Shown in pieces: positions 1 to 38,008 of a DNA stretch of 39,099 nt. The stretch is from positions 1 through 39,099 of the forward strand of contig NHGE01000016.1 of NCBI GenBank assembly GCA_002172375.1, read 5' to 3'. Each line of letters begins with the position of its first letter. Position 1 is the stretch's first letter. Under the pieces are notes generated by a model. It did not search any database and was not told the DNA's origin. It was given only the letters and a program-made list of their open reading frames with translations. Origin of the DNA: Euryarchaeota archaeon TMED129. GTDB lineage: Archaea; Thermoplasmatota; Poseidoniia; Poseidoniales; Thalassarchaeaceae. The position numbers were made by a program, and so were the translations under genes.

Positions 1-529
1 CGAACTCGTCGAGAAAGAGGATGTTGAACGACATACCTCGGACAGCACTTGCAGACGTAGAAGCTGCCAATATCTTACTGCCATTTTCTAACTCCAGAGA
101 TCCCTTGTTCCATGCTATTATACCCTGCTGCATCCACTTAGGTAAATTCTCGTATGCAGTCTGTAACCTTCCAAGAAGTTCTCTTGCGGTTGCTGCTTTG
201 TTTGCCAGAATACCAATGTTTACACTGTCATTGAATACAGCATAATGCAAAAGGTAAGATACGACTGTAGTGGATTTACCAGTCTGTCGTGGCATTTTAC
301 AGATGTTAAATCTGTTATCATGGAAGTTGTTGATTAACTTCTCTTGAAAATGATATGGATGAAACTGCGTAAGACCCTCATCAAGAGAAACAATCTTGAT
401 ATAATTGTTGGCAAAATAAACAGGATCTTCCTTACATTTCATAAACTCAAGAATTTGTTCTTGAGTAAACTCAATGGCAGTATTTGCTTTTTTTAGATTT
501 GGATTGCCAAGGTATACATTATCAGACAT
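1..529 (-). CDS. 17: Terminase large subunit gp17, N-terminal part (runs off window)
   Basis: This is the ATPase/nuclease motor that packages DNA into the prohead. Only the first 176 codons are inside the window, and the frame stays open to base 1. The ATG at 529 begins MSDNVYLGNPNLKK. A Walker A motif, PRQTGKST, lies at residues 80-87, and a Walker B motif, ILFLDEF, at about 170-176, just at the edge. These match the packaging ATPase of T4 gp17. The Walker A sits about 80 residues nearer the N terminus than in T4 gp17, so the N-terminal extension is shorter. The start lies 6 nt after the stop of the preceding gene with only a weak ribosome-binding site, which suggests translational coupling. 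In T4 this gene directly follows gene 16; here four genes come between. The nuclease domain is outside the window. Confidence 0.95.
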   Translation of the reverse strand, partial: MSDNVYLGNPNLKKANTAIEFTQEQILEFMKCKEDPVYFANNYIKIVSLDEGLTQFHPYHFQEKLINNFHDNRFNICKMPRQTGKSTTVVSYLLHYAVFNDSVNIGILANKAATARELLGRLQTAYENLPKWMQQGIIAWNKGSLELENGSKILAASTSASAVRGMSFNILFLDEF

Positions 530-535
530 AAGATA

Positions 536-2401
536 TCAACAGTTCCAGGCTCTAAGTGATTTATTGATTCTGCTATCAGGATCGTTTGCTGTCTTTGAAG
601 AGGTAAGTTTCTTTTTCATTCCCTTCATTCTAGCGCAGAACGACTTCCTGCGGGGATTTCCAACCTTCTTGCTTGGTGCCTTAAGGTCGCTTCCTGGATT
701 TTCTCTTTCGTAAGATTTTCTGCCTTTCTCGTTAAGACCCCCTTCTTTACTCTTTCCTGACTTTTTTGTCCATGCTGCGCCTTCGGCATGGAGGACTGGT
801 TGTCCAGGTTCATACTCGGATACGTTAAACGTTAATAGTTTCGCACCGGGATAAACTTTATCGATCTGATCTTGAACATCAGATCTAGTTGGTAATGATA
901 CTTGAGAGAAGAACATCTTCAACATAATGCTCTGACTTCTAAATCTGAAGATTACATTTACCAAGTTACCAGTTTTTGCTGGCATTCTAACTGCTTCTTC
1001 AACCATGTCAGGACATGCTTTCTTACCATGTACTGGACACTCTTCACCTTGATGGTTGTGCATACAACCTTTCTTTTCGTCAATTTGTTCAACTTCTTCT
1101 TTCTTGACACAGTTTGGATATCTCTTTCCAAACATAGTCTTCATACCTTTCTTTTCATAACCTTTCCAACATTTCTCATCAAGCATGTCACTACCAAGAC
1201 CCTTTGTTGCTTTCAGGGGTTCTGGTGTGACTAAATCGATGGTTTCATAGTCGGTAGGAGTAAAACTATCTCTCCAGTTTTCAAATTCTTCTTTCTTGGT
1301 TTTATTTCCCCAATTCTTCGCACCAACTTTTCTACACTTGACCAGTGCTCCCGATGCATATGCACTTGGCCAAACTGAATAACGTGACTTGACTTTATGG
1401 TAGCAAGCATCTTTCTCGCCTTCCTCAATGTCAATTTGATCACCAACTTCTACGTTGTTTTCTGTGAACCATCCGCGATTTACTTCTAAAGCACACAGCA
1501 CTTCTCCTTCAGAATATACTGGACTTTCTTCAAATGGTTCTAATTTTTTAATGCTTTCGATAATTCCATCCTCTCTGATGAAAGCAATATCAAGAGGAAT
1601 TTTTGTCTCTCGCATATGGAAAGACTGCTCTGCAACTTCATCAAAAATGAAAAGCATACCACTATTTGTATCCAGACTTTCACGGAACATAAGTCCCAGA
1701 TTGAAGTCTCTGATCTCTGTAGGGATTTCAATTTGAAGTGGTAAGGTTGTGAAATCTTCTTTCATACCTTTTGCCTTTTTTTCATTGTCGATGTTGTGAT
1801 CTGCACCAGTCATGACACGTTGTTTTAACGTAGAGACTCCATACTTATCTTGCTTGTGGCGGATCATACGTTTGGATCTATCAAACTTGTCAAGACCTTG
1901 CTTATCATACTTAGGTGCTTTTTCAGCAATTGTCTCTTCAGTCTTCACGTTGATTGCCTTCCCTTTTCTGTTTGGATTTGGATCTTTTGCATTCTTGCGA
2001 CGGAATGCTGCTTCCTCTTCATCTTTAGAAAGATTTCTCTTCATTTTTGAAGAACCACACTTGGGTTTTGTGGTTTGTCCTGGTTGTTTGGCACAGGGTT
2101 TTCCTGCGTATTTACCACCCAGTTGAACCCAACCAGGCTTCCCATCAGAAGACTTACTCTTGCCAAACCAGTCACGCAGAGAAGAATCACCACTTTTCGA
2201 TTCACTTACTCCTCCACCATTACCATTACCATTTCCGTTACCATTTTTCTTGGTTTCAGTATCGTCATCAACAGAATGTCCATTCTCTTTACGGAGCATT
2301 CCAGCAGGTCCCACAACCTTAAATCCCTTAGGGATTGGTTTGCACACTTTATCGGTGTAACAGTAATATTGTCCTGCAGGGCAACGTCCGTTCTTAGTCA
2401 T
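536..2401 (-). CDS. Multi-module Cys/Lys-rich protein with DUF192 domain
   Basis: Function unknown; 621 aa from the ATG at 2401 (a TTG three bases upstream would add one residue). Modules in order: a Cys-containing start with CPAGQYYCYTDKVC (7-20) and VVGPAGMLRKENG; an Asn-Gly linker (53-64); a basic block (74-153) with GWVQLGGKYAGKPC and KPKCGSSK, which resembles DUF5872 as I remember it; a DUF192 domain (about 218-328) with GLMFRESL, FHMRETKIPLDIAFI and ALEVNRGW; YSVWPSAYASGALVKC (341-356); CWKGYEKKGMK to PNC (411-431); a His/Cys cluster (446-463); a short domain (480-537) with DVQDQIDKVYPGA; and a basic C-terminal block (541-621) ending in RINKSLRAWNC, which resembles DUF6321. A late promoter box precedes it. 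The sequence is highly basic and reads as one frame. Placement before gp17 and beside fibre-like genes suggests a virion or late accessory protein, but that is inference. Confidence 0.8.
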   Translation of the reverse strand: MTKNGRCPAGQYYCYTDKVCKPIPKGFKVVGPAGMLRKENGHSVDDDTETKKNGNGNGNGNGGGVSESKSGDSSLRDWFGKSKSSDGKPGWVQLGGKYAGKPCAKQPGQTTKPKCGSSKMKRNLSKDEEEAAFRRKNAKDPNPNRKGKAINVKTEETIAEKAPKYDKQGLDKFDRSKRMIRHKQDKYGVSTLKQRVMTGADHNIDNEKKAKGMKEDFTTLPLQIEIPTEIRDFNLGLMFRESLDTNSGMLFIFDEVAEQSFHMRETKIPLDIAFIREDGIIESIKKLEPFEESPVYSEGEVLCALEVNRGWFTENNVEVGDQIDIEEGEKDACYHKVKSRYSVWPSAYASGALVKCRKVGAKNWGNKTKKEEFENWRDSFTPTDYETIDLVTPEPLKATKGLGSDMLDEKCWKGYEKKGMKTMFGKRYPNCVKKEEVEQIDEKKGCMHNHQGEECPVHGKKACPDMVEEAVRMPAKTGNLVNVIFRFRSQSIMLKMFFSQVSLPTRSDVQDQIDKVYPGAKLLTFNVSEYEPGQPVLHAEGAAWTKKSGKSKEGGLNEKGRKSYERENPGSDLKAPSKKVGNPRRKSFCARMKGMKKKLTSSKTANDPDSRINKSLRAWNC

Positions 2402-2406
2402 CAAAA

Positions 2407-2418
2407 GAGTAAATACTC
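2407..2418 (-). promoter_or_regulatory. Short hairpin in leader of the DUF192 mosaic gene
   Basis: Inverted GAGT/ACTC arms flank a 4-base AT loop. One arm is part of the AAGGAG ribosome-binding site, whose spacing to the ATG (14 nt) is longer than usual. It could modulate initiation, but it is short and may be chance. Confidence 0.3.
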
Positions 2419-2423
2419 CTTAT

Positions 2424-2431
2424 TATTTATC
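2424..2431 (-). promoter_or_regulatory. T4-late-type promoter box for the DUF192 mosaic gene
   Basis: The minus strand reads GATAAATA, matching the T4-like late consensus (TATAAATA). It ends 23 nt before the ATG and is followed by AAGGAG. Confidence 0.6.
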
Positions 2432-2436
2432 ATCTA

Positions 2437-4239
2437 TCAGAAGTTTATATCAAACTCGTAAAGTACATCACTACCAGTTCCTAAAACATGAAGTTTATAA
2501 CCAGCAGTTCTTGCCCTGCCATCAGCAGTTTTATTTGCATTATAACAGTTAACAACACGAATTTCTCTCGGATCAGTTTCCCATCCTGTTATATCAATAG
2601 CATGTCCATATGTTATTGTACTGGTAACATCATATGGTACAGCAAATTCCCAAAAAGAAATGGTATCAGTATTAGAACCGCAAACAAATATACCTTTTCC
2701 ACCAGGTGTCCAATCAAATGAATATTGAATTGCATCTGGTGCGGCAAGAGATGCTGTTTTACCATCATAATTTGCAGTGGTTGATCCTCTTCCTAAAGCA
2801 TATGGTGTATGTAAACTCCACTGATAGATTGCATCATCACCTCCATCAAACATATAAAATTTTGTTCCATCAGGACTAAATCTACAACACTGAGCACTTG
2901 CAACTCCTTCTGTATTTGCATCAACTGTGCCATCAGCAAAACTTCTTATATCATATGGTACAAGTAATGGAACAGATACTGCTTTATCAGTGGTTGAATT
3001 ATACCTATCCAGTATTGTTATCGTGGTGCCATCACTATTAAACCTACATCCGGTAGGGGTAACCCAATAATTTGTTAAATATGCAACACCAGTAGGTGAA
3101 GATGGCCACTGATTGGTTGATAAATCAATTGTTTGTGTTCCCGAAATTGTCGATGAATCAAATGGAGTACTTAAAGTAAATCCTTTTAAGGTATCTGAGT
3201 TATAGTCAACAACTGCCATAAATGTTCCATCAGGACTAATATCAAATGCCGCAGGGTTTGCCAATCCTAATGATGTTGCCGAAACATGAGTGACAGTTGA
3301 TGATAAATCAAATCCAGTGCTTAAAGACCACTCATTAACTTCATCACCTCCATTTCCAATAACATACATCTTTGTTCCATCACTATTAAATGCTACATCA
3401 AATGGACTTGATTCATATGATGTGGTGGCAAAATTAGTTCCCTCAGTTATTGTTCCACTTGTTACATCATATGCGTTTGATACACTATACTCAACAATTA
3501 AATCCGTATAATAATCAACAACAAACATTTTAGTTCCATCATTATTCCACCTAATATTATATGGATATAAATGACCATCTGCACCAACGTTGTAAGCACC
3601 ATCATATGATGCCGTTCCAACTGCATATGCCGTTGATAATGTAAATTGTTGAACATTATCATCACCAAACCCAATCAAATAAAACTTTGTACCATCAGCA
3701 TTAAATTCGCATCCTCTTATAGATCCATCTGAACTACCTATACTAAAAATATTATTCAGTCTTTTATTTAATTGCTCATATCCAGGACTTAATGTGCTAT
3801 TAGTTGCTGTACTTGCGATATCAAAAGCAGTTGACATCGTAAATTGAAGTGTGGTATCTCTATCAAATCCACAAAAATATAAGTACCTTCCATCAGGAGA
3901 TATTTCCATACCAATAGTATTGGTATCATATGGAATAGTACCGAAAGTTGCCTGAGTGGAAATTCCATCATCAGTGAATGGTGTATTGACTGTATAATGT
4001 ATTATATAATCTCCACTGTATGCTATGTACAAATGAAGACCATCAGGAGACCATGCAAAACTGTATGGATAGGATAAACCAGTTGTTCTAACTGGTCTAT
4101 TCTCCATTCCAACTCTTCTGAGACCACCTGTTGCTTTATTTGAAATCGAAGCAATTCTTATGTTATCATCAAAATCATACATCCCAGAGGTTCTTGATTC
4201 AAGACCACTTCCAGTTATAAGTCCCCTAGCTCTTGACAT
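2437..4239 (-). CDS. Ten-repeat beta-propeller-like virion/tail-fibre protein
   Basis: Probably a virion adhesin or fibre component; 600 aa. The N terminus, MSRARGLITGSG, resembles the short N-terminal motif of some phage virion proteins and may be an attachment segment (about residues 1-55). The rest is a tandem repeat of about 50-65 residues, each with a [SN]x[DG]G turn followed by a hydrophobic strand, then a D/T strand and a [ST]xP[YF] or STAY/STGF strand. The turns are near residues 64, 115, 180, 232, 285, 335, 401, 455, 511 and 571, giving ten units. This pattern (SPDGTKFYMFDGGDDAIYQW in one unit) is typical of WD40/SMP-30/lactonase-type propeller blades. No catalytic residues were recognised. 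The ATG overlaps the stop of the 120-aa gene by one base (TAATG), so the two are probably co-translated. Carbohydrate or host-surface binding is an inference. Confidence 0.8.
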   Translation of the reverse strand: MSRARGLITGSGLESRTSGMYDFDDNIRIASISNKATGGLRRVGMENRPVRTTGLSYPYSFAWSPDGLHLYIAYSGDYIIHYTVNTPFTDDGISTQATFGTIPYDTNTIGMEISPDGRYLYFCGFDRDTTLQFTMSTAFDIASTATNSTLSPGYEQLNKRLNNIFSIGSSDGSIRGCEFNADGTKFYLIGFGDDNVQQFTLSTAYAVGTASYDGAYNVGADGHLYPYNIRWNNDGTKMFVVDYYTDLIVEYSVSNAYDVTSGTITEGTNFATTSYESSPFDVAFNSDGTKMYVIGNGGDEVNEWSLSTGFDLSSTVTHVSATSLGLANPAAFDISPDGTFMAVVDYNSDTLKGFTLSTPFDSSTISGTQTIDLSTNQWPSSPTGVAYLTNYWVTPTGCRFNSDGTTITILDRYNSTTDKAVSVPLLVPYDIRSFADGTVDANTEGVASAQCCRFSPDGTKFYMFDGGDDAIYQWSLHTPYALGRGSTTANYDGKTASLAAPDAIQYSFDWTPGGKGIFVCGSNTDTISFWEFAVPYDVTSTITYGHAIDITGWETDPREIRVVNCYNANKTADGRARTAGYKLHVLGTGSDVLYEFDINF

Positions 4240-4601
4240 TATGAGATATCCTCGTAACCCACAATAATATTAACGTCATTAGCAGCACTTGCAGTTACTC
4301 TTAGTTGATCTCCCTCTTCTAAGTAAAAGTATGAATCTTTTTGAGAAATTATTTGTGTCGCATTTGCAGGAAGATTAATAGTTGATGCAATATAGAAATC
4401 ATTAGATCCGTCATATACAGATACACTGACATCTACAGCATTCGTTCCATCAACGTTTGCAGCAAATATTGAATTTATTTTTAATGCTTTTCCACTAGAA
4501 CCTGCATTAGTAACAACACCAACAATCGAAGTTCCTGTGATGTTAGCTCTAGCAGTCTTACCGTTAATGGTTGTTGGATTTTTTAAATTAGGTGCAGCCA
4601 T
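4239..4601 (-). CDS. Small beta-rich structural protein (120 aa)
   Basis: Not recognised as a named T4 protein. The sequence starts MAAPNLKNPTTINGKTA and is rich in Ser, Thr, Val, Ala and Asn, with alternating hydrophobic residues throughout and no Cys, signal peptide or membrane segment. It looks like a single all-beta sandwich domain, of the sort found in small fibre or decoration proteins. It is preceded by a good ribosome-binding site (GGAG) and a late promoter box that overlaps the stop codon of the 1132-aa fibre-like gene. Its stop overlaps the start of the propeller gene by one base, so it probably acts with that protein, perhaps as an adaptor or a trimer component. That role is inferred from position only. 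Confidence 0.75.
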   Translation of the reverse strand: MAAPNLKNPTTINGKTARANITGTSIVGVVTNAGSSGKALKINSIFAANVDGTNAVDVSVSVYDGSNDFYIASTINLPANATQIISQKDSYFYLEEGDQLRVTASAANDVNIIVGYEDIS

Positions 4602-4620
4602 GTTTTTATCTCCGTAATTA

Positions 4621-4628
4621 TATTTAGA
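4621..4628 (-). promoter_or_regulatory. Late promoter box for the 120-aa gene
   Basis: The minus strand reads TCTAAATA, overlapping the TAA stop of the 1132-aa fibre gene, 20 nt before the ATG. GGAG lies between. Confidence 0.55.
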
Positions 4629-7600
4629 ATATCATTCCCATCATTACTGAACTAGGTCCATCAGATCCTCCTCCCCCTCCACTAGCAGTAATTGTAGTTC
4701 CACTTATCGATAAACCGCTACCTGCAGTGAGGTAAGTTAACTTACTTTCAGAATCATCCCAAAAAACTAATTTATCTGAACCTGCATCATCAGCAGAAAT
4801 TTCTCCAGACGATGCTGAAAGAATATCTCCAGCAGAGGCATTTATTGATACAGTGTCTCCTCCGCCTCCAGCAGCGGCAGTAATGGTTGCAATACCACCA
4901 CTAGCAACTGCAGTTACATTAGTGCTAAAATTGATAGACGTAATTCCTGTTCCAACAGAAGTTCCGTTATTTTCAATTTCAATACCTTTATCAATTCCTG
5001 CAATATTAAGTTTATCATATTTTTGAAATTCAACAATGTCCCCATCAGTGACATTTGGTGTCATTGTTACGGTTGATCCGTTAGTTGCAGTAAAGTCGGA
5101 TCCGTTTATTTGCTTGACACCATTTACAAATACATCAAGCAATCCTACAGTATATCCACCTGTGACAGTGAAGTCTGTAGTTACTCCAGAAGAAGTTTCT
5201 GATTGTCTTGTGATGGTTGAGGATGGAATATCGACAGTTACAGTTGTTCCAGATCCAACAACTGTTATACCTACACCGGTAATTTTGATATCTGTAAATC
5301 CAGTGCCAACACGAACTGATCCGGATTGAATCCCAACACCACCATCAGGCAACCCAGTTAAATTAGCACCAGAAATTGCAGGTAATGTTGCAGGGAATCT
5401 AGCATCAGGAATAGTTCCAGATCCTAAATTAGATGCATTTAATGCAGTAAGACTTGCGCCACTACCATCACTAAGAAGAAGTGTTCCAGTGCTTGCTGGA
5501 AGTTTTACTGTTATATTACCACCAAAATCGCCATGTTCTGGAGCTTGAAGTCTGGCATAATGAGCGTTATTTGTCTCACAATATAAATCAATTCTGCCTG
5601 GTGTAGAATCGTTACTCTTAATTTCGATTATGTTAGTTGCTGAGGTAATTCCAGTGACTAACAAATTTTTACTTGTTGAGAGACCACTAACTGCTAATTG
5701 GGAAGCAGTAATAATACCAGTAGTGTTAATAGAAACTGTCGTACCAATTCCAACAGATGCTTGCTTTCCCTCTCTATCACTAAAAGCAATTTCTCCTGAA
5801 GTATCTTGATGTATTCTGACAGTCGTTCCTGTACCAATAATAATTTCATCGATGCCTTCAATTTTTTTAGCAGTTGGATCGAGAGTAATTGACCCAGAAC
5901 CAATAGTAAGAATACCAGTGACTCTAGCGTCACCATCAACTAAGAGTGTAGTTGATCCAACTCCAATGTGAACTGTACCAACACCAGTGCTAATTGTAGA
6001 TACACCAACTACATGAATACCTTCATCTAAAACTTTAATTCCTGATCTTGCAGTGATGAGACCGATAGAATCAATATTAGTTACGTCTTCATATGTAAGG
6101 ACACCAGCAACATCAACATTACCTGAGAATGAACCAGTTGTTGCATTTACAGCAGCAAATGTTGATACACCAGTGACTTCTAAATTATTTTGAATTTTAA
6201 CTTTCTTCGTGGTTGTAACACCAGTGTTACTATCATAGTTACTCCACGTTCCACCAGCACCTGTGCCTCCACCTCCACTAACAGAGGAAAATACAAAGGG
6301 TTGGGTGCTGTTAGATGCATCGATGCCAAGATACATTCCATCATAGGCACTCAGATTTGTTGCAATACCTACAATATCATCAAGATATCTCAGTCGAGTT
6401 TCTCCACCACCACCAATGGTAGCGATTTGCTGCTGAATTCTATTAACAAATGTTCTGTAATGGTTTTGTAACTGATCTAGAGTTACAAATTTTTGATCTA
6501 AAGGTGTTAGAGGATCACTTGAATTATTTGTAGATGGATCTCCAGGTAGAGTTGGATTGTCTTCTTTTAAAAGAGTTCTCTCATTTACAGTATCAAGAAT
6601 ATTTTCAATATTATTAACTTTTTCCAATAAAGAATTATTTTTTTCTTCAATGGAACTCATCTGTAGTTTTTCTAAAACTACTCTTAATTCTTCTTGAATA
6701 TTTTCAATATTTTCATTCTGTTTCTTAATATGTTTTTCATTAGTAACTAGATCTACTTCAAGACCTCTCATTTGCTCAGAGATTTTATCTCTAAGTTTGC
6801 TTACTTCTGTATCAAGATTGGTTTGATAAGTTTCGTTAGATTCTGTTAAAACATTTTGAATTTCTTTAAGATCTTCACTAACAGTTTCTTCTAAAAAGTT
6901 AAATCTTTTTTGATATTTTTCAATATCTTTAGAATAACTCTCTAATTTTTTATCCTCACTAGTCTCTCTATTTTTGAAATCCTTATACAGAGATTGATAT
7001 TTTTTGGCAATAGAATCTATCTCTTCTTTATATTGATCAGTTACTTCTTTAAGTTCTTGTATCTTTTCTGAAGTTTTTTCAGGAATACCCTCTGAAATAA
7101 ACTGAACTTTTTCTGTCAGATTATTAACTCTAGAAAGAACTTCTTGCTCTAAATTTTTTACTTCTTGCTCAGACTTGAGTTTAGTTTCAATTAGAAGATT
7201 ATTGTATTTGGGTATCTCAGTCTCTGTAAAGACCTTTACCTTTGCATTAAGACTTTCAATAGTTTCTTTGTAAGAATCTATTGCATTTTTGATAGTCTCT
7301 TCTGTTTTTAATTCTGTTTCTGCAAAAAGTTTTTTATATTTTGGAAGTTCTTTCTCTACTAACTCATTTACATTTTTGTTAAAATCTCCGGCAGTTTCTT
7401 TAAATTCTGCTTTGACTATGTTGATAGTATTTTCGTTTACACTTTCAACAGTTTCTAGAGCAGTAGTGACTTCCTTACTTACGTCCTCTTTAATGGAGTC
7501 TAAGTTTTCTTCTACTTGTCCTTTGAAAACATCAAGTCTATCGTCAAATCTAACTTCTGATTCTGTAATTAATTTTTTGTATTTTGGTACATCTAAGTCA

Positions 7601-8022
7601 AGAAAAGATTCAACAGAGTTGGAAAGATTTACAAAATCCTCTCTAATCTTATCAACTGTCTTACCATTAATATTTGATATCTTAGATTCAATTTTAGATA
7701 TTGATTCTTCTACAAAAAGAAGTTGTGCCATCATGGCACCATCTAAATCTTCTTTATTGATTAAATGCTTTATCTCATCTTTTATACTATCAATTTCTGT
7801 AGATACATTTTCTACTTTTTCTAAATTTTCTTTGAAACTATCAAAAGTAGAAGTGAAGTCACTTAAAGATTGAATATGATTTAAGTTTGATTTAAAAGCG
7901 TCAAATGCTTCAGATACCTGCTCTATCTTTTCAGGACGTGCAGAATCATAACTCTCCTTAACCTCATCAAGGGGAGTTTTCTTATTATTACCAAAAAAAT
8001 CTGAAGGCTTCTTTAGTGCCAC
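4624..8022 (-). CDS. Long coiled-coil/beta fibre-like virion protein (1132 aa)
   Basis: Likely a tail-fibre or whisker-like structural protein. The GTG at 8022 follows a GAGGAG ribosome-binding site and begins MALKKPSDFFGNNKK. Residues about 30-480 are Glu/Lys-rich heptad-type coiled coil, broken by three PKY turns (146, 227, 271). A Pro/Gly/Ser/Asn hinge (489-505) follows, then a short helix (510-535) and a Gly run. The rest is beta-rich and carries motifs familiar from cyanophage fibres: VTNIDSIGLITARSGIKVL, LNASNLGSGTIPDARFPATL, FVNGVKQING, and VGIGTT-like tracts. The C terminus is a Gly/Ser tail ending MMGMIF. This layout (stalk, hinge, beta distal part) fits a trimeric fibre. It sits between gp16 and gp17, an insertion relative to T4. 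Receptor binding is inferred. Confidence 0.8.
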   Translation of the reverse strand: MALKKPSDFFGNNKKTPLDEVKESYDSARPEKIEQVSEAFDAFKSNLNHIQSLSDFTSTFDSFKENLEKVENVSTEIDSIKDEIKHLINKEDLDGAMMAQLLFVEESISKIESKISNINGKTVDKIREDFVNLSNSVESFLDLDVPKYKKLITESEVRFDDRLDVFKGQVEENLDSIKEDVSKEVTTALETVESVNENTINIVKAEFKETAGDFNKNVNELVEKELPKYKKLFAETELKTEETIKNAIDSYKETIESLNAKVKVFTETEIPKYNNLLIETKLKSEQEVKNLEQEVLSRVNNLTEKVQFISEGIPEKTSEKIQELKEVTDQYKEEIDSIAKKYQSLYKDFKNRETSEDKKLESYSKDIEKYQKRFNFLEETVSEDLKEIQNVLTESNETYQTNLDTEVSKLRDKISEQMRGLEVDLVTNEKHIKKQNENIENIQEELRVVLEKLQMSSIEEKNNSLLEKVNNIENILDTVNERTLLKEDNPTLPGDPSTNNSSDPLTPLDQKFVTLDQLQNHYRTFVNRIQQQIATIGGGGETRLRYLDDIVGIATNLSAYDGMYLGIDASNSTQPFVFSSVSGGGGTGAGGTWSNYDSNTGVTTTKKVKIQNNLEVTGVSTFAAVNATTGSFSGNVDVAGVLTYEDVTNIDSIGLITARSGIKVLDEGIHVVGVSTISTGVGTVHIGVGSTTLLVDGDARVTGILTIGSGSITLDPTAKKIEGIDEIIIGTGTTVRIHQDTSGEIAFSDREGKQASVGIGTTVSINTTGIITASQLAVSGLSTSKNLLVTGITSATNIIEIKSNDSTPGRIDLYCETNNAHYARLQAPEHGDFGGNITVKLPASTGTLLLSDGSGASLTALNASNLGSGTIPDARFPATLPAISGANLTGLPDGGVGIQSGSVRVGTGFTDIKITGVGITVVGSGTTVTVDIPSSTITRQSETSSGVTTDFTVTGGYTVGLLDVFVNGVKQINGSDFTATNGSTVTMTPNVTDGDIVEFQKYDKLNIAGIDKGIEIENNGTSVGTGITSINFSTNVTAVASGGIATITAAAGGGGDTVSINASAGDILSASSGEISADDAGSDKLVFWDDSESKLTYLTAGSGLSISGTTITASGGGGGSDGPSSVMMGMIF

Positions 8023-8046: not shown

Positions 8047-8475
8047 CTATTTATCGTCCTCTTTTAATCCATCTTTCAGCATCTTTGCCAAATCTGCTGT
8101 TGACCCGACAAATAATGCGTTATTAACAGTTGATGGACCTTTAATCTTTTCCTCTGCTTCAACGTCTTTAAGTTTTTTCTGCAGATCTAATAATTTATCA
8201 GTTGCATCGGCAACGTTTTTAATTAACTGACCAGCAACTTCATATGCTCTTGGCATCTCACTTTCTTGTGCAAGTTCGAGAACACCGTTAAGAGCTTCTT
8301 GCCCCTTTTCTATAATGGAGTAAAGATTACCTCTAGTATACTCGTAATCTTTTTTTATGTCATCAACACCTTCTTTGACTTTTTCAATTTTACTCTCGAC
8401 CACTTCTGGTTTTACAACTTCGCCAGAGGTATTGAATGTGTCGTTTAGATCGTCAAAGTTTTTTGTCATTTTCAT
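8047..8475 (-). CDS. 16: Terminase small subunit gp16
   Basis: DNA-packaging small subunit that recognises concatemeric DNA and regulates the gp17 motor. The protein is 142 aa, slightly shorter than T4 gp16 (164 aa). The core, from about residue 35 to 105, contains DYEYTRGNLYSIIEKGQEAL, then SEMPRAYEVAGQLIKN and DKLLDLQKKLKD. This helical pair is the family signature, with conserved ESExPRAYEV. The C terminus has VNNALFVGSTADLAKML. The ATG overlaps the gp15 stop by one base (TGATG), and a second in-frame ATG lies two codons on. It follows gp15 as in T4, but gp17 is displaced by about 7.5 kb. A late promoter box for the next gene lies over its last two codons and stop. Confidence 0.93.
   Translation of the reverse strand: MKMTKNFDDLNDTFNTSGEVVKPEVVESKIEKVKEGVDDIKKDYEYTRGNLYSIIEKGQEALNGVLELAQESEMPRAYEVAGQLIKNVADATDKLLDLQKKLKDVEAEEKIKGPSTVNNALFVGSTADLAKMLKDGLKEDDK
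8048..8055 (-). promoter_or_regulatory. Late promoter box for the fibre-like gene
   Basis: The minus strand reads GATAAATA, made from the last codons and stop of gp16, 26 nt before the GTG start. Confidence 0.65.
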
Positions 8476-9473
8476 CAGAACCCACCACTAAATCCGAAGT
8501 CGTCACCCTCTTCAATCAATGCACTATCTGCAGAGTCGATGATAAAGATTTCTTCTCCTGTTAAGTGATCGGTAATGGTAGTTCCATCTTGACCTCTCTT
8601 CACATTAAGTCTATTGCCAGTTATCTTAGTAATGAATATCTCTTCTCCGTTAAGGTCAACGTAAGTTTTTTCTGTAAGACCACTAGCATCAGCAACATTG
8701 AATGCTGTTTTTGCTTTTGTAATATTTTCTGCCAGTGTTGTTGCTGCGTTTCCTGTGTAATTCTTGATTGCCCTCGGTTCGACAGAGTAAGAAACCTCTC
8801 TGGTAGCATTTGAAGTATCTGTTCCAGTGAGATAACTGACTGTAGCCTTTTTGATGATATCCTTGGTTGCGGTGGATGCAGGACCAAATAGATATGTTTT
8901 TGCAGTAAATCTCAGAGTATAAAGAAGAACTCTTCTGCTAGTGAAATCTCCTTCATAGTCATCCTGCATGGTAATGTTTTCCAGGACGACGGGAATATCT
9001 CTTTTTTCTTGAAGTGCTTCAACCAGTTCTACTGTGACGTTATATGCTGGTTGGAAATATGGTAAAATTTGTTCTACAATTTGAAGTGCATCATCATTTA
9101 ATTTGCACATGATGGCAAGTTCAAATTGCATATTATATGGAACAGGCATATAAGACTTTTTAGTCTCAGTACCATCATTAGGATCCTTTACAGTGAATGT
9201 TGATGTTGTAGTAACTTTTCTACTAGGATCATATGTTAGTCCTGTAAACTCAAATGACATTCTCGGAAGAGTAATGGCAAAAGGTTTGTTAAGATCAGGA
9301 GACTGTTCTATTCTTGCTAGAAATTTTTGAGTGGGACCGTATGCCAGAGGAACTTTTACAACACTAACAACATTATCATCAGTATCTTCATGTTTTATTG
9401 AAATGTTATTAAACAGAGTACCAAAAGAGATAATGGTTCTCCTCAAAATTTCGTTGTAAAAATATTCAAACAT
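8475..9473 (-). CDS. 15: Tail completion / proximal sheath stabiliser gp15
   Basis: Caps the tail at its proximal end and joins it to the neck. The protein is 332 aa; T4 gp15 is about 272. The N terminus, MFEYFYNEILRRTIISFGTL, and the internal NDDALQIVEQILPYFQPAYN and DDYEGDFTSRRVLLYTLRFT segments are characteristic of the family. Residues about 245-312 look like an added domain containing YVDLNGEEIFITKITG and VKRGQDGT, a module that recurs in the 2517-aa and 4250-aa proteins of this window. The C terminus is acidic, then Gly/Phe-rich. The gene has its own late promoter box, and a hairpin lies in the leader. The ATG has TAGGAC upstream as a modest ribosome-binding site. It overlaps gp16 by one base. 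Confidence 0.93.
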   Translation of the reverse strand: MFEYFYNEILRRTIISFGTLFNNISIKHEDTDDNVVSVVKVPLAYGPTQKFLARIEQSPDLNKPFAITLPRMSFEFTGLTYDPSRKVTTTSTFTVKDPNDGTETKKSYMPVPYNMQFELAIMCKLNDDALQIVEQILPYFQPAYNVTVELVEALQEKRDIPVVLENITMQDDYEGDFTSRRVLLYTLRFTAKTYLFGPASTATKDIIKKATVSYLTGTDTSNATREVSYSVEPRAIKNYTGNAATTLAENITKAKTAFNVADASGLTEKTYVDLNGEEIFITKITGNRLNVKRGQDGTTITDHLTGEEIFIIDSADSALIEEGDDFGFSGGF

Positions 9474-9511: not shown

Positions 9512-9519
9512 TATTTAGG
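9512..9519 (-). promoter_or_regulatory. Late promoter box for gp15
   Basis: The minus strand reads CCTAAATA, overlapping the TAA stop of gp14. It lies 39 nt upstream of the ATG, longer than the others because of the hairpin. Confidence 0.55.
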
Positions 9520-10966
9520 GCATACCGAATGGGTTCTGCTCAGAGAAGTCAAGTATCTTGTCTGCCTCAACTTCAATATTGATGTTGTCAGCAAATCCAT
9601 CATCGGCAGGTTGTGCGTCTACCACTCTCAGTTCATACGCTGCACCGGAAGTTTGACCAGTAATAGTTTCTCCACGGGTAAATTCTCCAGTTACAGTACC
9701 AACCTCAAGTTCATTTGTTGATGAATTCCATACTCTAACTCTTGCAGTTGTTCCACTGGAGGATCCTACTACAATTTCATTAAATTGGAATGTTCCAGAT
9801 CCAGAACTACCAGATGTTGCGATAGACATCGTAGGAGCAACAGAGTATCCAACACCAGCATTTGTTAGGAAGATGTTTGAAATCGTCCCAGCAGCACTTA
9901 CAACTGCTGTTGCAGCAGCAGACACAGTTGTGACACCAGATTCAAAGACTTGATTAGTGAAGGTGATTGTAGGGGGAGTTGTGTATCCAGATCCACCGTT
10001 TGTAATAGTAACGATTCCAACAACACCATCACCAATTGTTGCGGTTGCCGCAGCACCAGTTCCACCTGATCCACCACCAGTAAATCTAACACCTGGTGCT
10101 ACAGTATATCCCGCACCAGAATTTGATACATCAACCCTCTGAACAGATTGATCCTTTGGATTGGCATTTAAATTACATACATTTATACCACCAATCATAG
10201 TGGCAATACCGATTGCTGTAGTCCCTCCTGCAGGGGCAGCAGAGACAACTACAGTTGGCACACTACTGTATCCACCACCTCTGTTTGATATTGTAAATTG
10301 TCTTACACCACCATCAAATATAGCAACAGTTGCAGTTGCTTGAACAGCAGAACCAACCAGAGTGAGTGTCTGTGTAGGACCTTGAATAGTGTTTATACCA
10401 TCATCAGTCTGACCATCATAGTCTTCTCCTATGAGGTTGTTATCGATATCTTCTATACCAGTTGCGATAACTTCATCTTCCAGACGGAAGAGTTCGCAAT
10501 ACAATTCATAAACGTAGAGATTTTGTAACTGATAATATGGTTTTGCATATTCAATATCTTTTATTTCATAAATTCTATCATCAAGAGGAAACCAAATAAG
10601 ATCTCCACTTTTTGGTCTAGTTGATAATTTTATGTTAGACTGATCTTGAATCAGAGGAGTAATATAATTTTCAAATCTCTCTCTAGAGATGATAAGTCTT
10701 ACTTCATCTTTTGATTCAATTCCAAACTTAGAAAGAATATTACCAGCACCAGAGTATTGATCATAATTATCAACATATGCTTCAAGAGGAAGTGCCATGT
10801 CAAATTTTGACTGCACTACTTCTCTTATAACAGTATTTTCTGTCAGATACTTTCTAGGTAAGTAAAATATATCTACACCATAAGTTCTCAGTTGTTCATT
10901 TATTAAGTCCTGAACAAGATTTTGCTCACCGCTAGTTCCTTGTGTGAAATATGGATTTAATACCAT
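9515..10966 (-). CDS. 14: Neck protein gp14 with GxGY repeat insertion
   Basis: Head-completion/neck protein that joins the filled head to the tail together with gp13. At 483 aa it is almost twice the length of T4 gp14 (256 aa). The N-terminal part (1-165) is the conserved neck core: MVLNPYFTQGTSGEQNLVQD, VDIFYLPRKY, GDLIWFPLDDRIYEIK, YQLQNLYVYELYCELFRLED. Residues about 200-395 carry four beta repeats with GxGY followed by a P-x-[VIF] strand (231, 284, 325, 371), and 395-445 carries a TRGETITGQTSGA module also seen in the 2517-aa protein. The C-terminal stretch, DKILDFSEQNPFG, looks like the end of the original gp14 core. The ATG lies 4 nt after the gp13 stop. The insertion suggests a decorated neck. 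Confidence 0.92.
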   Translation of the reverse strand: MVLNPYFTQGTSGEQNLVQDLINEQLRTYGVDIFYLPRKYLTENTVIREVVQSKFDMALPLEAYVDNYDQYSGAGNILSKFGIESKDEVRLIISRERFENYITPLIQDQSNIKLSTRPKSGDLIWFPLDDRIYEIKDIEYAKPYYQLQNLYVYELYCELFRLEDEVIATGIEDIDNNLIGEDYDGQTDDGINTIQGPTQTLTLVGSAVQATATVAIFDGGVRQFTISNRGGGYSSVPTVVVSAAPAGGTTAIGIATMIGGINVCNLNANPKDQSVQRVDVSNSGAGYTVAPGVRFTGGGSGGTGAAATATIGDGVVGIVTITNGGSGYTTPPTITFTNQVFESGVTTVSAAATAVVSAAGTISNIFLTNAGVGYSVAPTMSIATSGSSGSGTFQFNEIVVGSSSGTTARVRVWNSSTNELEVGTVTGEFTRGETITGQTSGAAYELRVVDAQPADDGFADNINIEVEADKILDFSEQNPFGMP

Positions 10967-11843: not shown

Positions 11844-11851
11844 TATTTAGG
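11844..11851 (-). promoter_or_regulatory. Late promoter box for gp13
   Basis: The minus strand reads CCTAAATA, overlapping the TAA stop of the 132-aa gene, 25 nt before the ATG. The same 8-mer serves gp15. Confidence 0.55.
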
Positions 11852-21778: not shown

Positions 21779-24700
21779 TTAAACAATGTAATTTTTGAAT
21801 TTCAAGGAATTTGATCTAGTGACTAATGTTGATGTAGAAATACCAGTTCCCTCAGAAATTCCAATTCCACCTAAAGTATAAGAATTATAAGAGTTAGACT
21901 CTGCCCTAGCAGTAATGTCTATTCTTCCCCAACTATAATTTCCAAAGAAATCTGAGGTTGTTATACCCGATGTGATGTGTTGATCCACATCAACAGTAAC
22001 TCTTCTTACATGAGTTGTAATTCCCTGAACACTTGTTGATATAGAAACCGCAGTTCTTACGGCATAGACATTATCAGCAAAAGAAGTTCCTACACCTACA
22101 GTGTTACCTGAAGGATCAAACGAGGTTATTGATGTTGTTCCTGCACCTATATTAGAATTCCTTACTACAAACAAATCATTTGCATCGAGAGAACTAATTG
22201 TCACTGCAGTTCCAGTAATAGAAGTATCTCTAAGGAATGAGTTAAACGGAATATGAACATCAAAGATGAGTGATGTCGTACCAACTCCTACATTTGTGGT
22301 TCCAAATCCAACAATAATACCATTATCTCCAGAATAAGAATTCACACTTACTTCTTCTTCAGAGTAAGTTGGAGGAGAAATAAGAACAGTTGGTGGGTTT
22401 GTATAAGTATATCCAACACCTGGACTTGTGACGGCAACTCCTGTGACTGTCCCTCCAGCACTAATGGTAACATTACCAAATCCTCTGGATGTAGTTCCAA
22501 CACCAACAGTTGAACCAAAGCTTACAGTAGCAGTTGTATATCCAACACCACCATCAGAAATAGTGACAGAAGAGATAGTGCCAAATCCAGAAACAACTGC
22601 AGTACCAGCTGCACCTGTCTTAGTTTCTTGTCTTACAAACTTAATTTTCTTTTGGAAATCTAAATCTGTATCATTCTCATTTTGAGAGTTAAAGATAGGT
22701 CTTAAATTATCAACATAGATTGCTGTTGATCCCACTCCAACAGACTTGATGAGATATGCACTTGGATTAATAACAGGTTCGTACAACTCTCTATCCTTAC
22801 CAACACCGATTTGATTGATAAAGATATCTTCTGTTTGACGACACCAATCAACAGGTCTTTCAAGAGTAATATCAGATGTATTTCCTGGACCCTCATAAGG
22901 ATTAGTTTCAACAGTATTGGTGGACTTAACATTCTCTACAATTCTTTCATCTTCTGTTAGATATGATGCTTGACCAATTGATCTATCACTCTTGAGTTGT
23001 AAAGAATCACCTTTCTTCACTGTTTCAATAATATTTCTAAAGATAACATCAGTGTCACCACTTCCTTTATAGAAGAGAATGTTTACAGTATCGCCTACCT
23101 TAAGAGGTTCTGTGAATACAACGGTGCTTCCTCCATTAAATGTATATCCCTCTCCAGGAACTTGTAGAGTATTATTAACAAATACAAGGAGAACATCTTC
23201 AACGTTGATCTTAGACCCTTTAGCAGCAACGATTGAGACGATAGAACCTGCTTTTGTAAGTGGGAAATCTTTTCTAACACCATCAATAAATTCATCAACC
23301 CTATCCAGAACATCTAATGTTCCAATTGTCCATCCACTGAACTCATCTATATGAACTTCATCAATTGTCATTTGGAACTCATTTCCAGAATAAGAAGAAG
23401 TGGTTGGAATACCAGTTGTTCCTCCAATAGCAACCGTCAAGATCTGACCATTACCATATCCATAACCAGAGTTTACAATCTCAAAGTCAATAACACTAGA
23501 TCCCTGACCAACAACAACATTTGCAGTTGCATGTGTTCCAAATCCAGTAGCAGAGGAGGAACTGTATACCAACGGTATGTTGGAGTAACTTAATGGATTG
23601 TCAAATACAACATCGAGTGGTTTGTTGAGTTTACCGCATCTTGCATAAAAATGTTTTCTAGTCGAAATACCAGTGTTTATTTCAAAAGTTGTATTATCAA
23701 TAATTCTAAGAACTTTTGTTCCATTTACTGCTGGGTCAAATGTACTAGCAGAGTTATTGGTTGCTCTTGGTGCAATAATAACAGGTTGTGCAGTTCCTCC
23801 ACTTTGGAAGAAAGTTGGAACTGTAGAAACACCAGCATTGACTTCAAATTCAGTAGAACTATTAACTGCAGTTACTTTAGCACCACAGTAAACTGGATCT
23901 GTTGCTCTAGGATAAGTATGGGTAGATGATCCACTATCAAGTCCACAAGTAAATCCAAGACCAGTCAGAAGGACATCACTCTTCTGTCCTGTAGTGGAAA
24001 GATTGTGAGCACCTGATGTGGTTACAGTCATGATGCCACTTACGTTATCATAAATCGCATTAGTAACATTAACCGGTCCTGAACCACTGTAGTCGCAGGT
24101 AAACGCTATTCCAGAAACAATAATTTCATCATCAAGAGTCAATCCATGTGCGGTGGATGTAGTGACGGTTGTTAATCCAGTTATTGAAGTATAACCAACG
24201 TTTGATATATCTCTAGGTGCATAGAATACCTGAGAGTTTGTAACAGCAACTCCAATGATATGTCCACCAGATACTGATGCTGTTCCAATAGAAACGATGT
24301 TTGATTCTGATGTAGAATTTGTTCTGATTGCAACATTGACAACCAATTCATCAACATTAGTTCCTGTTGTTTGTATTCCACTTCTATAACCAGAACCACT
24401 ATTACCAATAGCAATGGAGGTGATAGTTCCCGAAGCAGATACGACAGCAGTTCCACCCGCAGCAACCAATGGTTGATAACCAAAACCTTCAGTTGATGCC
24501 ACTGAGACGATAATACCACCCTTAGGATAACTAGAAATTCCAACGTCTGGTCCAAGTGGAACTGTATTAGTTCCTTGGAAGGTGATGGATGTAATACCAG
24601 ACTGTTCACTCAGGACATATTGGTCGGTAAGTCCAGGTGACTGGAATATGTCATTAACTAAGATGACAGCACCTTCTGTCGAAATACCAGGAGTGTCAGA

Positions 24701-27700
24701 TCCACTTTGCTTGAGATTAAATTCATTTTCCGTAGCATTAAATCCTGCAGAAATGTCATCAAAAACATAGTTCTTATAATAAGTCTCATTTGCAGTATCA
24801 ACAATACCAGATCTCATGAAAGATCTTCCTTGGAAACTGGAAGATGTAGTGATACCAGTCCAATCTCTTTCATCAGGTGGATTTGTAGTCGATCCAATAG
24901 GAGTATTTCCAAACGGTGCTTCTACAAAGTTCAGTACATTATCTACAATATTGTAATTTCCTACAATTTTGGTAACTAAATCTCCGGTGGCAGCGACTCC
25001 AATCTTTGTTCCTAACCACTCTCTACGAACTCTAACGGTATTTGTACTGCCAATACCAACACCTTCAATCTTCATAATTTCATCACCAATTTGAATTAGA
25101 TCTGATCCGAAGAAAGATGTAATTCCACTAAATTTCAAAATGTTGTCCACAGTCAACATCTGATCAGCAAGTGTGGTAGTTAGAGCAGCAGAAACTATGG
25201 GAGACTGAATAACATTATCAAGTGCAACCATAACCTTTGCATTTTGATTAGTAGATACAAATCTATGAGATGTACCAATACCAACACTTTCAAGTTCAAC
25301 TACCTCAGGAATTGACTTCAATGCATTTGCAGCACTTGTTGCAATCTTGATGATATTGTCATCGACTTTAACAGCAAATAGATTTTCTCCTGGAAGGAAG
25401 GTTGTATTTGCAGCACCAACAAAACTAGTTGATGCAATGCCAATGGAGGAAGATGCAGTTCCAACATGAACATATTTCAGTTTTTCACCACTCACAAAGA
25501 AGTGATTTGGAATTTTAATGGAATTATCTGTAGTGTTAACAACATCGGTATCATTTGCCTCAAAGTATCTTTCAAAGATTGGAAGATTTTCATGCTGTAT
25601 TTCAAATCCTCTCTTGATATCAGAGTCTGTGCCTTGATAAGATCCCAAATCACTAGTAATCGATCCATTAGTGAAATCAATCGCATTAGGTAATGAAGTG
25701 TCTTCATTCAAAGTTAATGCATTCATGTATACATTAACTACTGTGTCAATACTTGCATTTGGAGTAAAGACGAGAGAAACGGTTCCTGCGGCAGAAACTC
25801 TAGATCCAAATGTTCCTAATCCAGCACCAGTTTCTATGACACCATATTCAGTGTCGTATGTCTGATAACTTTCTGGTGAAGTTACATAATCATCAACAAC
25901 AATAATTTCAGAAAGTTGAGTTGAAGTATTGGTTGTATCAGTAACTTGTGCTATAAAATAAGCAGCATCATAATTATTTGGATATTCAGCAACTGTATTG
26001 ATTCCTGGAGACCCTGAGGAAGAGATGCTAGTTGTTCTAGCTTCAAGTCTAGCTCTAGTGAGATCAGCAGTTCCAATACCAGTAATAGTATTTGTAGAAA
26101 GTCCTACTTGAATAGTGTTAATTACACCTGTAGTTGCAATACCAACAGAAGTTGGAATAAAATCAACATTTAAAGAAGAACCACTGAAATATGCATGATA
26201 TGTGCCAAGTCCAATTGCAGAATATCCTCCAAGATTTGTTGTCAATCTTCCATATTCCAACATCTCAATGTTTGTTCCATCATGAACAATATTAAGTTCA
26301 ATTGATTCAAATTCTTCATTTCTAGTCAAGTCTGGATTTATATCAACCAGAACTTTAACACTAGTATGAGTATCTCCAATTGAAACGATAGTGGTGGTGA
26401 CTCCAGATGTTACTGGAGAACTCTTAGTTTCAATTGTTGCAACTCCACCAAGACTTGTAGTTCCAGTTCCCAGGAAATTGTCATTTAAGTTGTATGAGAA
26501 GATGCTAAGATCATAATCATTAACTGCGGATTTAGTTGGATAGAATTGGAGTTGAGCTTCGGATCCAGAGATAGCAAAGTCAAATGAACCTTGATCATAA
26601 TGAGTTTCAACTCTACCATATTGATTCAAGTATCCACGGGAATTGTCATGGAGGAGATCGACAATCATCAATTGTCTTTGTGCATTATATCTCTTGTCTC
26701 TGACATATGTGATATACTTTTGGGATCTAACATCACTCAAGGAGAAAGTATCTACTACACTAAAAGAAAATGGTCTAGGACTACTATTAAACTGACTACC
26801 AATATCATCAATGGAAAGAACTCTATTACCAACGGATTCAAAATAATCTGTAAGAATTCTATTAGAGAAGACTATTTCGTCGGAAATAAGTTTTGAACCC
26901 TGAGTTAGATTATTTTCTGTGGCAAGATCAAATCCATAGACACAATTCAAACTTGCAAATCCATCAATGTTATTGACAGTATTAATACTAGTAGTATCGG
27001 TTGGAATTCCAACAGACATACTATTACTATTGTTAGTCTCTAACTGATAGTCCGAGAACTTCTTATAACCTAATGTGTGATTTTGTGCAGAAACAACATC
27101 ATTCCAATCATCATAAGGAACTCTAGATCTCAATGAGTATGAGAAGTTTTGATAGTAAAAATTGTCTTGAAGTTTTTGTAGTTCAAAGTTTAAACGACCA
27201 AAATCTTCTTGCCAACCTTGAATAACTTTTGAAGTTGCTTCTAAATCAATATAAGAATCAAAGGAAGTGATGGAAGCAGCAATTCCCTGAACTTTAGAAT
27301 CAGAACCTCTAATAACTTCACCGACAACGAAATTATCATCTGACGAAACTGTTACTACATTAATTTTTGGATCCCAACTTTGAACCGTTCCATTCGCAGA
27401 AACTGATTTAATTATTTCTCCATTGATAAAGTTTCTTGTGTTTAAGGTAGAAGTAAATGATGGGAAATGTTTGGATGCAAGTATTTTTCCAGAAGAACTA
27501 GTTGCATTGAAAGTTCCTGGGAACTCACTACCTTCTAACAATCCAGACATACTATAAGTAACACTTCCAATACCACCAAGATTTTCAGTAATTCCTGTAA
27601 CATCAAACAACTTATAGTCATATTCAGAAGAGTTGTATCCTTTCCCAGTTGATCCTACACCAACACTGATACCCTCTACAAGAACTTTATCCCCTACAGC

Positions 27701-37291: not shown

Positions 37292-37299
37292 TATTTATT
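37292..37299 (-). promoter_or_regulatory. Late promoter box for the 53-aa gene
   Basis: The minus strand reads AATAAATA, overlapping the TAA stop of the 237-aa gene, 17 nt before the ATG at 37275. Confidence 0.55.
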
Positions 37300-38008
37300 G
37301 TGTGTCAAGAGGACGACCCTCTTGTGATTTGTACATTTCTTCGGCAGTTTCTTCTTCAATTTTACGTTCTTTAGACGTTTTCCAGAAATATTCGTCTTCA
37401 CGACCCATTCCAAGACGTTCAAAACCATTTTCAACCTGATAATATTGAGTTGAAACTTTAAAGTCAGGCATTTTTGGTTCAACAGGTGTCAAACTGTTAT
37501 CATAGATACGCATTCTATTGTTAGGATACAGTGCATACTGTCCATTTTCAAGTTCAATTAGATTATGTGACTTATGTTCTGCAGGATTTTCACTTGTTGC
37601 ATAGTCTACTACCTCAGGATCCTGATGATAATTGTCTATAGTACAGATATAAGTGCCTTTCTGAATACCAAAGTCTCTTGTATACAGTTCATAGTCCATA
37701 CTACCAATAAATTGCTTGGTAACTGCTACAACACCATAGTCCATACAGTTCCAGAACTGTAGGTTAGGAAGGTCCATATCAGGGCTAGGTGCCTCTGGAG
37801 CAGACACAAACGCACTGATAGGTAGTTTGTCATACATTGCTGCGTATTCGGGCAAATACGTCTCAAAATAAAAAGTGCGCCCAGGTATCGATTTACACGA
37901 TACCCAGACGCCTTTAACAAATTCACCATGACCAGATTGATGATCAGTGAGATATTCTTTTCTTACCCATACCTCTACCGAGGGGAGGTTACAAATTAAA
38001 GCAGCCAT
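37295..38008 (-). CDS. Conserved-looking late protein of unknown function (237 aa)
   Basis: No family could be assigned. The sequence MAALICNLPSVEVWVRKEYL followed by HGEFVKGVWVSCKSIPGRTF suggests a folded soluble protein; FWNCMDYGVVAVTKQFIGS and YICTIDNYHQDPEVVDYATS follow. There is no signal peptide or membrane helix. The last 40 residues are charged and helix-like (EDEYFWKTSKERKIEEETAE). A promoter-like TTAAATA box overlaps the stop of the 44-aa gene 23 nt upstream of the ATG. It sits upstream of gp25. I recall similar unnamed proteins in cyanomyovirus genomes, but this could not be checked here. Confidence 0.75.
   Translation of the reverse strand: MAALICNLPSVEVWVRKEYLTDHQSGHGEFVKGVWVSCKSIPGRTFYFETYLPEYAAMYDKLPISAFVSAPEAPSPDMDLPNLQFWNCMDYGVVAVTKQFIGSMDYELYTRDFGIQKGTYICTIDNYHQDPEVVDYATSENPAEHKSHNLIELENGQYALYPNNRMRIYDNSLTPVEPKMPDFKVSTQYYQVENGFERLGMGREDEYFWKTSKERKIEEETAEEMYKSQEGRPLDTQ

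Follow-up and report, generated by a model that had tools for sequence, protein, structure and literature searches.

Gene content of the gp16-gp17 interval

What is encoded between the two terminase genes of a T4-like cyanomyovirus found on contig NHGE01000016.1, and do these genes form one host-recognition unit that travels as a block? The contig belongs to assembly GCA_002172375.1 (Euryarchaeota archaeon TMED129) and was analysed over positions 1 to 39,099 of the forward strand; these 39,099 nucleotides are hereafter called the window. The sequence derives from a T4-like cyanomyovirus that is closest, among named phages, to S-SM2 and Bellamy, and four open reading frames (ORFs), all on the minus strand, occupy positions 536-8022. 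A preliminary description had presented them as a cassette inserted between gp16 and gp17. We estimate at about 0.75 the probability of another reading, namely that the interval holds a modular tail fibre made of a stem, a small joint protein and a receptor-binding beta-propeller tip, next to a separate mosaic gene.

The splitting of the two terminase genes is borne out by the ORF coordinates and by Pfam and PHROG terminase matches. Indeed, the small terminase gene gp16 (8047..8475; PF11053 (DNA_Packaging), phrog_445) forms the proximal boundary and the 5' part of the large terminase gene gp17 (2..529; PF03237, phrog_5989) forms the distal one, both on the minus strand, on which the gene order is gp13, gp14, gp15, gp16, fibre gene, 120-amino-acid (aa) gene, propeller gene, mosaic gene and gp17.

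The minus-strand features of the four genes are as follows. The fibre gene (4624..8022) encodes 1132 aa from a GTG start. Its stem (6404..8022), a coiled coil followed by a conserved block that ends near residue 540, is common to relatives that lack the two genes that follow it, and its beta-rich distal part (4624..6403) matches the tail-fibre PHROGs 30742 and 18345 and stands in place of the resident fibre end of relatives (...SLPGMSLGLTVALDG). The last nine residues of the protein, SSVMMGMIF (4627..4653), are called here the plug. Next comes a 120-aa all-beta protein (4239..4601; phrog_26609, function unknown), called here a class-1 joint, as indicated by the AlphaFold2 model and by structural relatives in BFVD. 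It is followed by a 600-aa ten-repeat beta-propeller, the tip (2437..4239), recognized through Pfam propeller families, AlphaFold2 and Foldseek, whose N-terminal ~30 residues (4150..4239; SRARGLITG..ESRTSGMYD) are called the socket. Lastly, the mosaic gene (536..2404, with the ATG at 2401 a likelier start than 2404) matches DUF192 (E=1e-25) and DUF6321 (E=2e-22) in Pfam, in agreement with its earlier designation as a DUF192 mosaic.

Residents of the interval and exchanged genes

Relatives were surveyed with S-SM2, Bellamy and 80 IMG/VR loci retrieved by means of gp16; as these loci were taken for having the strongest gp16 matches, near relatives are over-represented. Of this set, 20 span the whole gp16-gp17 interval; the mosaic gene is present in 20 and a fibre gene in 15, and the joint and the propeller in none. 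S-SM2 and Bellamy carry in the same place a tail fibre, a small gene without a detected joint match and the mosaic gene. Among 50,697 phage records, from isolate genomes, 500 match the mosaic, 10 the propeller and 6 the joint. The joint and propeller are therefore a rare addition to an interval in which the fibre stem and the mosaic are standing residents, and the term inserted cassette is misleading for the latter two.

DNA alignments locate the exchanged segment more closely. L012, the locus with the nearest backbone, shares 86.8% identity with the window over 9046-6404, where the similarity ends inside the fibre gene (L004 and L005 are similar); the distal fibre part is mostly not alignable with it, the joint and propeller are absent from it, and a single 408-bp patch at 80% is retained before position 2439, at which the propeller stop codon begins and from which onward the identity is 93.9%. 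The pattern is reversed in two other loci: L092 is 88.1% identical over 4691-2439, with gp15 at ~70% and a fibre stem of another type, and L084 is 88.4% identical over 4420-2439, with 77% on the gp17 side. It follows that the recently exchanged unit consists of the fibre 3' end, the joint and the propeller, and that on the right it breaks off sharply where the propeller gene stops; the stretch shared most recently with other phages (2439..4691, minus strand) comprises the last ~65 bp of the fibre gene, the joint gene and the propeller gene.

It had been proposed that the four genes travel together as one host-recognition block. They are contiguous in the window and three of them carry a late promoter box, yet the fibre (15/20) and mosaic (20/20) occur in complete intervals without the small gene and propeller, the joint and propeller are found in other genomic settings without the mosaic, and the exchange boundaries leave out both stem and mosaic. 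A common block is hence barely credible; the stem and mosaic stay, and the moving part is the fibre 3' end with the small gene and the propeller. As to the host-recognition function proposed for the four, it is well supported for the stalk, adaptor and propeller, given that the motif at the fibre C-terminus is conserved, that the joint gene is coupled to the next one and that tips of different folds can replace one another; the mosaic is best read as a separate resident unrelated to the assembly of stem, joint and tip.

Short ORFs were seen between the propeller and mosaic genes of L084 (2001-2350, 116 aa) and L092 (about 8330-8550, 72 aa), the latter ending like a resident fibre tip (ALPGMSLGLTVALDG); they may be remnants of a replaced fibre end or tiny extra fibres. 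The mosaic gene, near-universal in the interval, has a variable middle part (window 536-2404; L240 13606-15159) and possibly encodes an unrecognised structural protein.

The proposed class-1 joint, its plug and its socket

The AlphaFold2 model of the joint has nine strands and a mean predicted local distance difference test (pLDDT) score of 86.7. In BFVD, 270 structural matches were obtained at E <= 0.001, with E values down to 1e-14; among the matches listed, the relatives are mostly ~100-125 aa long and several are annotated as virion structural proteins. No solved structure was found among the sequence relatives of the joint at E up to 1. A host origin of the joint was considered and rejected: no joint was found in 20 related genomes, and the six matches in 84,980 species genomes are all in metagenome-assembled genomes.

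A search with the joint gave 80 viral loci from cyanophages and other phages. In these loci (i) the gene 5' of the joint typically ends in ...PV[IM][MA]GMIF, the C-terminus conserved in fibres that precede class-1 joints, (ii) the 3' gene is nearly always coupled to the joint, the large gene overlapping or abutting the joint stop codon in 68 of 76 cases, and (iii) the 3' proteins belong to families that are unrelated past the N-terminus, where most begin with related short motifs (GLIGG…SGVY / GFNGGLIG…GVWT). A domain scan of 32 tips found Laminin_G_3 in 9 and Gly_rich_2 in 10, and propeller models were matched as well. The window tip carries this N-terminal attachment segment in the form of its socket, a motif common to tips of other folds; the profile-profile comparison of propeller-type with other-type N-termini gave P=5.7e-5 and an HHalign probability of 66%. 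In the AlphaFold2 model of the propeller protein, residues 1-40 have a pLDDT of 33-42 and the remainder is confident, as it should be if the segment took on its fold only when bound. Pelagibacter phage HTVC033P (gp64-gp66), phage DSL-LC04 and Bellamy (gp39-41) show this gene pattern too, with GKAIAMAIVFG as a variant of the plug.

Joints that are 93-97% identical carry tips of different fold clusters. Conversely, 100% identical joints with tips 83% similar are preceded by fibres that resemble each other only at chance level. Judged from these sequences, both the fibre side and the tip side of the joint appear to be exchangeable. Furthermore, DNA pattern scans were run over 2.9 million viral contigs: PVIMGMIF followed by a stop codon preceded a class-1 joint in 20/20 stretches (in two of these the joint runs off the end of the locus and is recognized by its start, MAAPNLKSPTTITGKTARYA), and the tip start MIGFNGGLIG was preceded by a class-1 joint in 8/8.

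Other joint classes and virion proteins

Scans with class 2, to which the 114-aa protein of S-SKS1 belongs, yielded 26 loci, and those with Bellamy gp43, of class 3, yielded 12. Upstream of class-2 joints the fibre ends in TPFILALGG, and the protein downstream of these joints starts like MAKYxSGRQKNLKVGISSY; upstream of class-3 joints it ends in ...WLYGGG, ...AALFN or ...ASLFT. The upstream gene could be read for 123 distinct joints, of which 113 have the plug of their own class there and none has the plug of another class; some of the ten unmatched joints follow a diverged fibre end such as GKAIAMAIVFG. When strict class-1 and class-2 plug ends were sought in 2094 ORFs (36 and 21 found), the matching joint came next in every case. 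The classes are homologous by profile comparison (class 1 with class 2, P=2.7e-9; class 2 with class 3, P=5e-7; reversed controls, 0.65 and 0.13).

Joints also occur in series. S-SKS1 encodes in order the fibre gp12, the 114-aa class-2 protein, the fibre gp10 (1727 aa, ending in ISPIMMGMIF), a class-1 joint and a LamG-type tip, and class 2 followed by class 1 is also found in L134, L156, L160 and L164. We lean slightly towards a general explanation of these observations, in which a superfamily of small beta-sandwich joints, divided into classes that exclude one another and differ in plug and downstream N-terminus, would be a connector system of aquatic phages that builds fibres from interchangeable serial segments and allows one structurally unrelated tip to replace another through the exchange of a single gene. 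Such a system would also account for the fibre parts reported missing from T4-like cyanophages: according to a review (PMC2984593), no counterpart of g34, g35, g37 and further fibre genes has been recognised in cyanomyoviruses. The window protein has the features proposed for this superfamily, being a beta protein within ~105-135 aa whose gene follows that of a fibre with a plug and precedes that of a further segment or tip. In Bellamy, gp31-gp44 (L175, 302-12483) form a cluster of alternating genes for short fibres, joints of classes 1 and 3, and glycine-rich tips, which suggests several different tips in one phage.

Phage S-SCSM1 has in its gp16-gp17 interval the fibre gp26 (1478 aa, with a class-2 plug, ending in TPFILALGGN), gp27, which is a class-2 joint (E=2e-38), gp28, a distal fibre that starts with MQARKRFFSGRETSLSLGI, and gp29, a mosaic orthologue (55% identity over the C-terminal half). 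All four are labelled virion protein in its record, and 45 virion proteins were obtained by mass spectrometry of CsCl-purified S-SCSM1 (PMC9602691). The presence of the four in the virion is taken here from the record annotation and the text of that paper, and the labels presumably come from that mass spectrometry. They speak for joints being retained in the virion, and for a structural role of the mosaic as well.

These data bear on the possibility that the 120-aa protein acts as T4 gp38, Mu Tfa or Pam3 gp25 do, as a chaperone of fibre assembly that would fold the fibre end, the tip or both and then leave. It is small, conserved and encoded beside a fibre gene, as fibre chaperones often are. 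However, the class-2 relative, gp27, carries a virion protein label in S-SCSM1, a phage for which mass spectrometry of purified virions is available, whereas Pam3 gp25 was not detected in virions and the T4 chaperone is likewise absent from them. In addition, the joint has no match to a Tfa or chaperone family in Pfam or PHROG, and the matched pair of motifs, at the fibre C-terminus and at the N-terminus of the next protein, is what a connector would need. A chaperone role thus seems unlikely, with a connector preferred.

The fold of the joint could also suggest that joint and propeller decorate the head, or the capsid surface more generally, and are encoded after fibres by chance: its matches in the PDB, weak and mixed, are to turret, capsid and nucleoplasmin-like beta-sandwiches (template modelling (TM) scores 0.4-0.57). 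Against this stand the fibre-specific neighbourhood in unrelated phages, downstream proteins that are lectin-like or resemble glycine-rich adhesins, and class-2 joints that link two long fibre-like proteins. A location on the capsid is very improbable, and fibre components remain the preferred assignment.

The propeller protein

The ten repeats noted earlier in the 600-aa protein were recovered: there are ten SPDG-type repeats, and the AlphaFold2 model (pLDDT 81.6) has ~40 strands, which fits ten blades. Repeated four-stranded blades together with propeller family matches identify the protein as a beta-propeller. Foldseek retrieved many propellers from the PDB, with a whole-chain TM score of at most 0.39 among the matches listed; the protein may close as one ten-bladed ring.

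The best family matches are lactonase and SGL propellers, and it could therefore be asked whether the protein is an enzyme of the lactonase/gluconolactonase type, acting on the host surface or on metabolites, rather than a binding tip. The propeller nevertheless occupies the position of lectin-like and glycine-rich tips in other loci, has ten repeats instead of seven blades and gave no good whole-chain structural match; a purely enzymatic role appears rather improbable. A binding tip that has enzymatic activity as well is a further alternative. In S-SKS1 (L172, 127164-141832), a 1601-codon frame starting at 3605, between baseplate wedge genes and without an annotated coding sequence, is also propeller-like.

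Late-promoter-like boxes and translational coupling

Three of the four genes have a late-promoter-like box, as first described: boxes of the form NTAAATA lie 26-32 bp upstream of the fibre, 120-aa and mosaic genes, and the window box scan found none before the propeller gene. These are, on the minus strand, the ATAAATA of the fibre gene (8048..8054), a CTAAATA upstream of joint and tip that overlaps the fibre stop codon (4621..4627; TTC TAA ATA) and the box of the mosaic gene (2424-2430). In the whole window, CTAAATA/ATAAATA occurs 9 times on the minus strand vs once on the plus strand. The propeller start codon overlaps the joint stop codon (TAATG). A late promoter of its own was rejected for the propeller gene, which has no box and is coupled to the joint. 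In other loci, such a box is kept by 11 with a fibre-joint gap of 20-24 bp, compared with 1 of 25 in which the gap is <=4 bp. At 4621-4627, 9512-9518 and 11844-11850, CTAAATA coincides with the stop codon of the upstream gene, which thus doubles as promoter sequence.

Proposed assembly of the fibre and comparison with known systems

The assembly can be proposed as follows. The 1132-aa protein would form the shaft, and its C-terminal plug (VMMGMIF) would bind the 120-aa beta-sandwich joint, which would stay in the virion. The joint would grip the propeller through the ~30-residue N-terminal socket and thus display it as the receptor-binding tip. Joint and tip would be expressed together from the late promoter on the fibre stop codon and be translationally coupled. 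Since plug and socket are conserved, recombination could replace the tip alone, or the fibre end with joint and tip, while the shaft stays as it is. This reading draws on gene architecture, conserved termini, exchange boundaries, the diversity of tip folds and the homology of the joint classes. Several points weigh against it: (i) physical docking, stoichiometry and receptor binding are what we infer from these observations, (ii) the virion evidence concerns a class-2 joint, (iii) propeller-type N-terminal motifs are linked only modestly in sequence to the others (P=5.7e-5, HHalign probability 66%), (iv) the pattern scans show an absence of exceptions more than breadth, because many of the contigs were known beforehand from the joint search, and (v) the ligand of a beta-propeller could be other than a host receptor.

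The site itself was already known. Between g15 and g18, cyanomyoviruses have a hyperplastic region at this place (Millard et al. 2009, as cited in PMC2984593), which according to that citation holds 4-14 inserted genes of predicted metabolic function; the genes added here, in contrast, are probable fibre tip components.

Separate receptor-binding adhesins at the fibre tip are known from the T2-type gp37-gp38 system (T2, PP01 and Salmonella phage S16), in which gp38 also has a conserved N-terminal attachment region that sets compatibility and an exchangeable, often glycine-rich distal part. Unlike gp38, which is encoded right after the distal fibre gene and sits directly on gp37, the tips of the window and of the collected class-1 loci are preceded by the 120-aa gene, and a joint would stand between fibre and tip. 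The distal domains differ as well: the window tip is a propeller, and the tips on class-1 joints comprise propellers and LamG-like lectins besides glycine-rich proteins (Gly_rich_2 in 10/32).

In the anchor-branch systems of Klebsiella phages and coliphages (KP32, KP34, K1-5, G7C), short conserved peptides, which vary by phage group, likewise dock exchangeable receptor-binding proteins. Docking there takes place on a T4gp10-like domain of the first receptor-binding protein and leads to branching, whereas a separate small protein and serial extension are proposed here; no T4gp10-like family match was found in the window fibre with Pfam and PHROG. The gp34-gp35-gp36-gp37 chain of T4 resembles the arrangement suggested for class-2 joints in having serial fibre segments with a small connector between them. 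None of the searches made gave a sequence relation between this chain and the fibre and joint genes. To our knowledge, plug-specific connector classes are not known for T4. The freshwater myocyanophage Pam3 (gp24-gp25) is also comparable, with a cyanophage fibre that has a TNF-like beta domain and a glycine-rich tip, and a small beta-sandwich partner.

Thus the site, separate fibre tips and peptide-docked receptor-binding proteins are already known, and a small joint family with class-specific plugs is undescribed in the literature found, coverage of which was partial, with most subscription journals outside it. Few receptor-binding proteins of T4-like cyanophages have been identified. For many aquatic phages without annotation, the plug/joint/socket rule could offer a sequence-only route to fibre order and to the receptor-binding tip; it makes predictions on the pairs of proteins in contact and sets the exchangeable host-recognition unit apart from the resident stem and mosaic.

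Other features of the window

The C-terminal residues ~200-440 of gp14 (9515-10966) extend past the neck-protein model and resemble virion and baseplate structural PHROGs. A 4250-aa protein is encoded at 21779-34531 in the baseplate region, between baseplate wedge genes. Two genes lie at 37295-38008 and 38234-39004; of their products, the one of 237 aa matches a ferredoxin PHROG, by its annotation, and the 256-aa protein matches a PHROG of unknown function and, weakly, a glycosyltransferase PHROG. Finally, the phage contig sits in a bacterial bin of 1.4 Mb in which other contigs carry photosystem reaction-centre genes. It is likely to come from a phage of an infected cyanobacterial cell or from a cyanobacterial phage that was co-binned.

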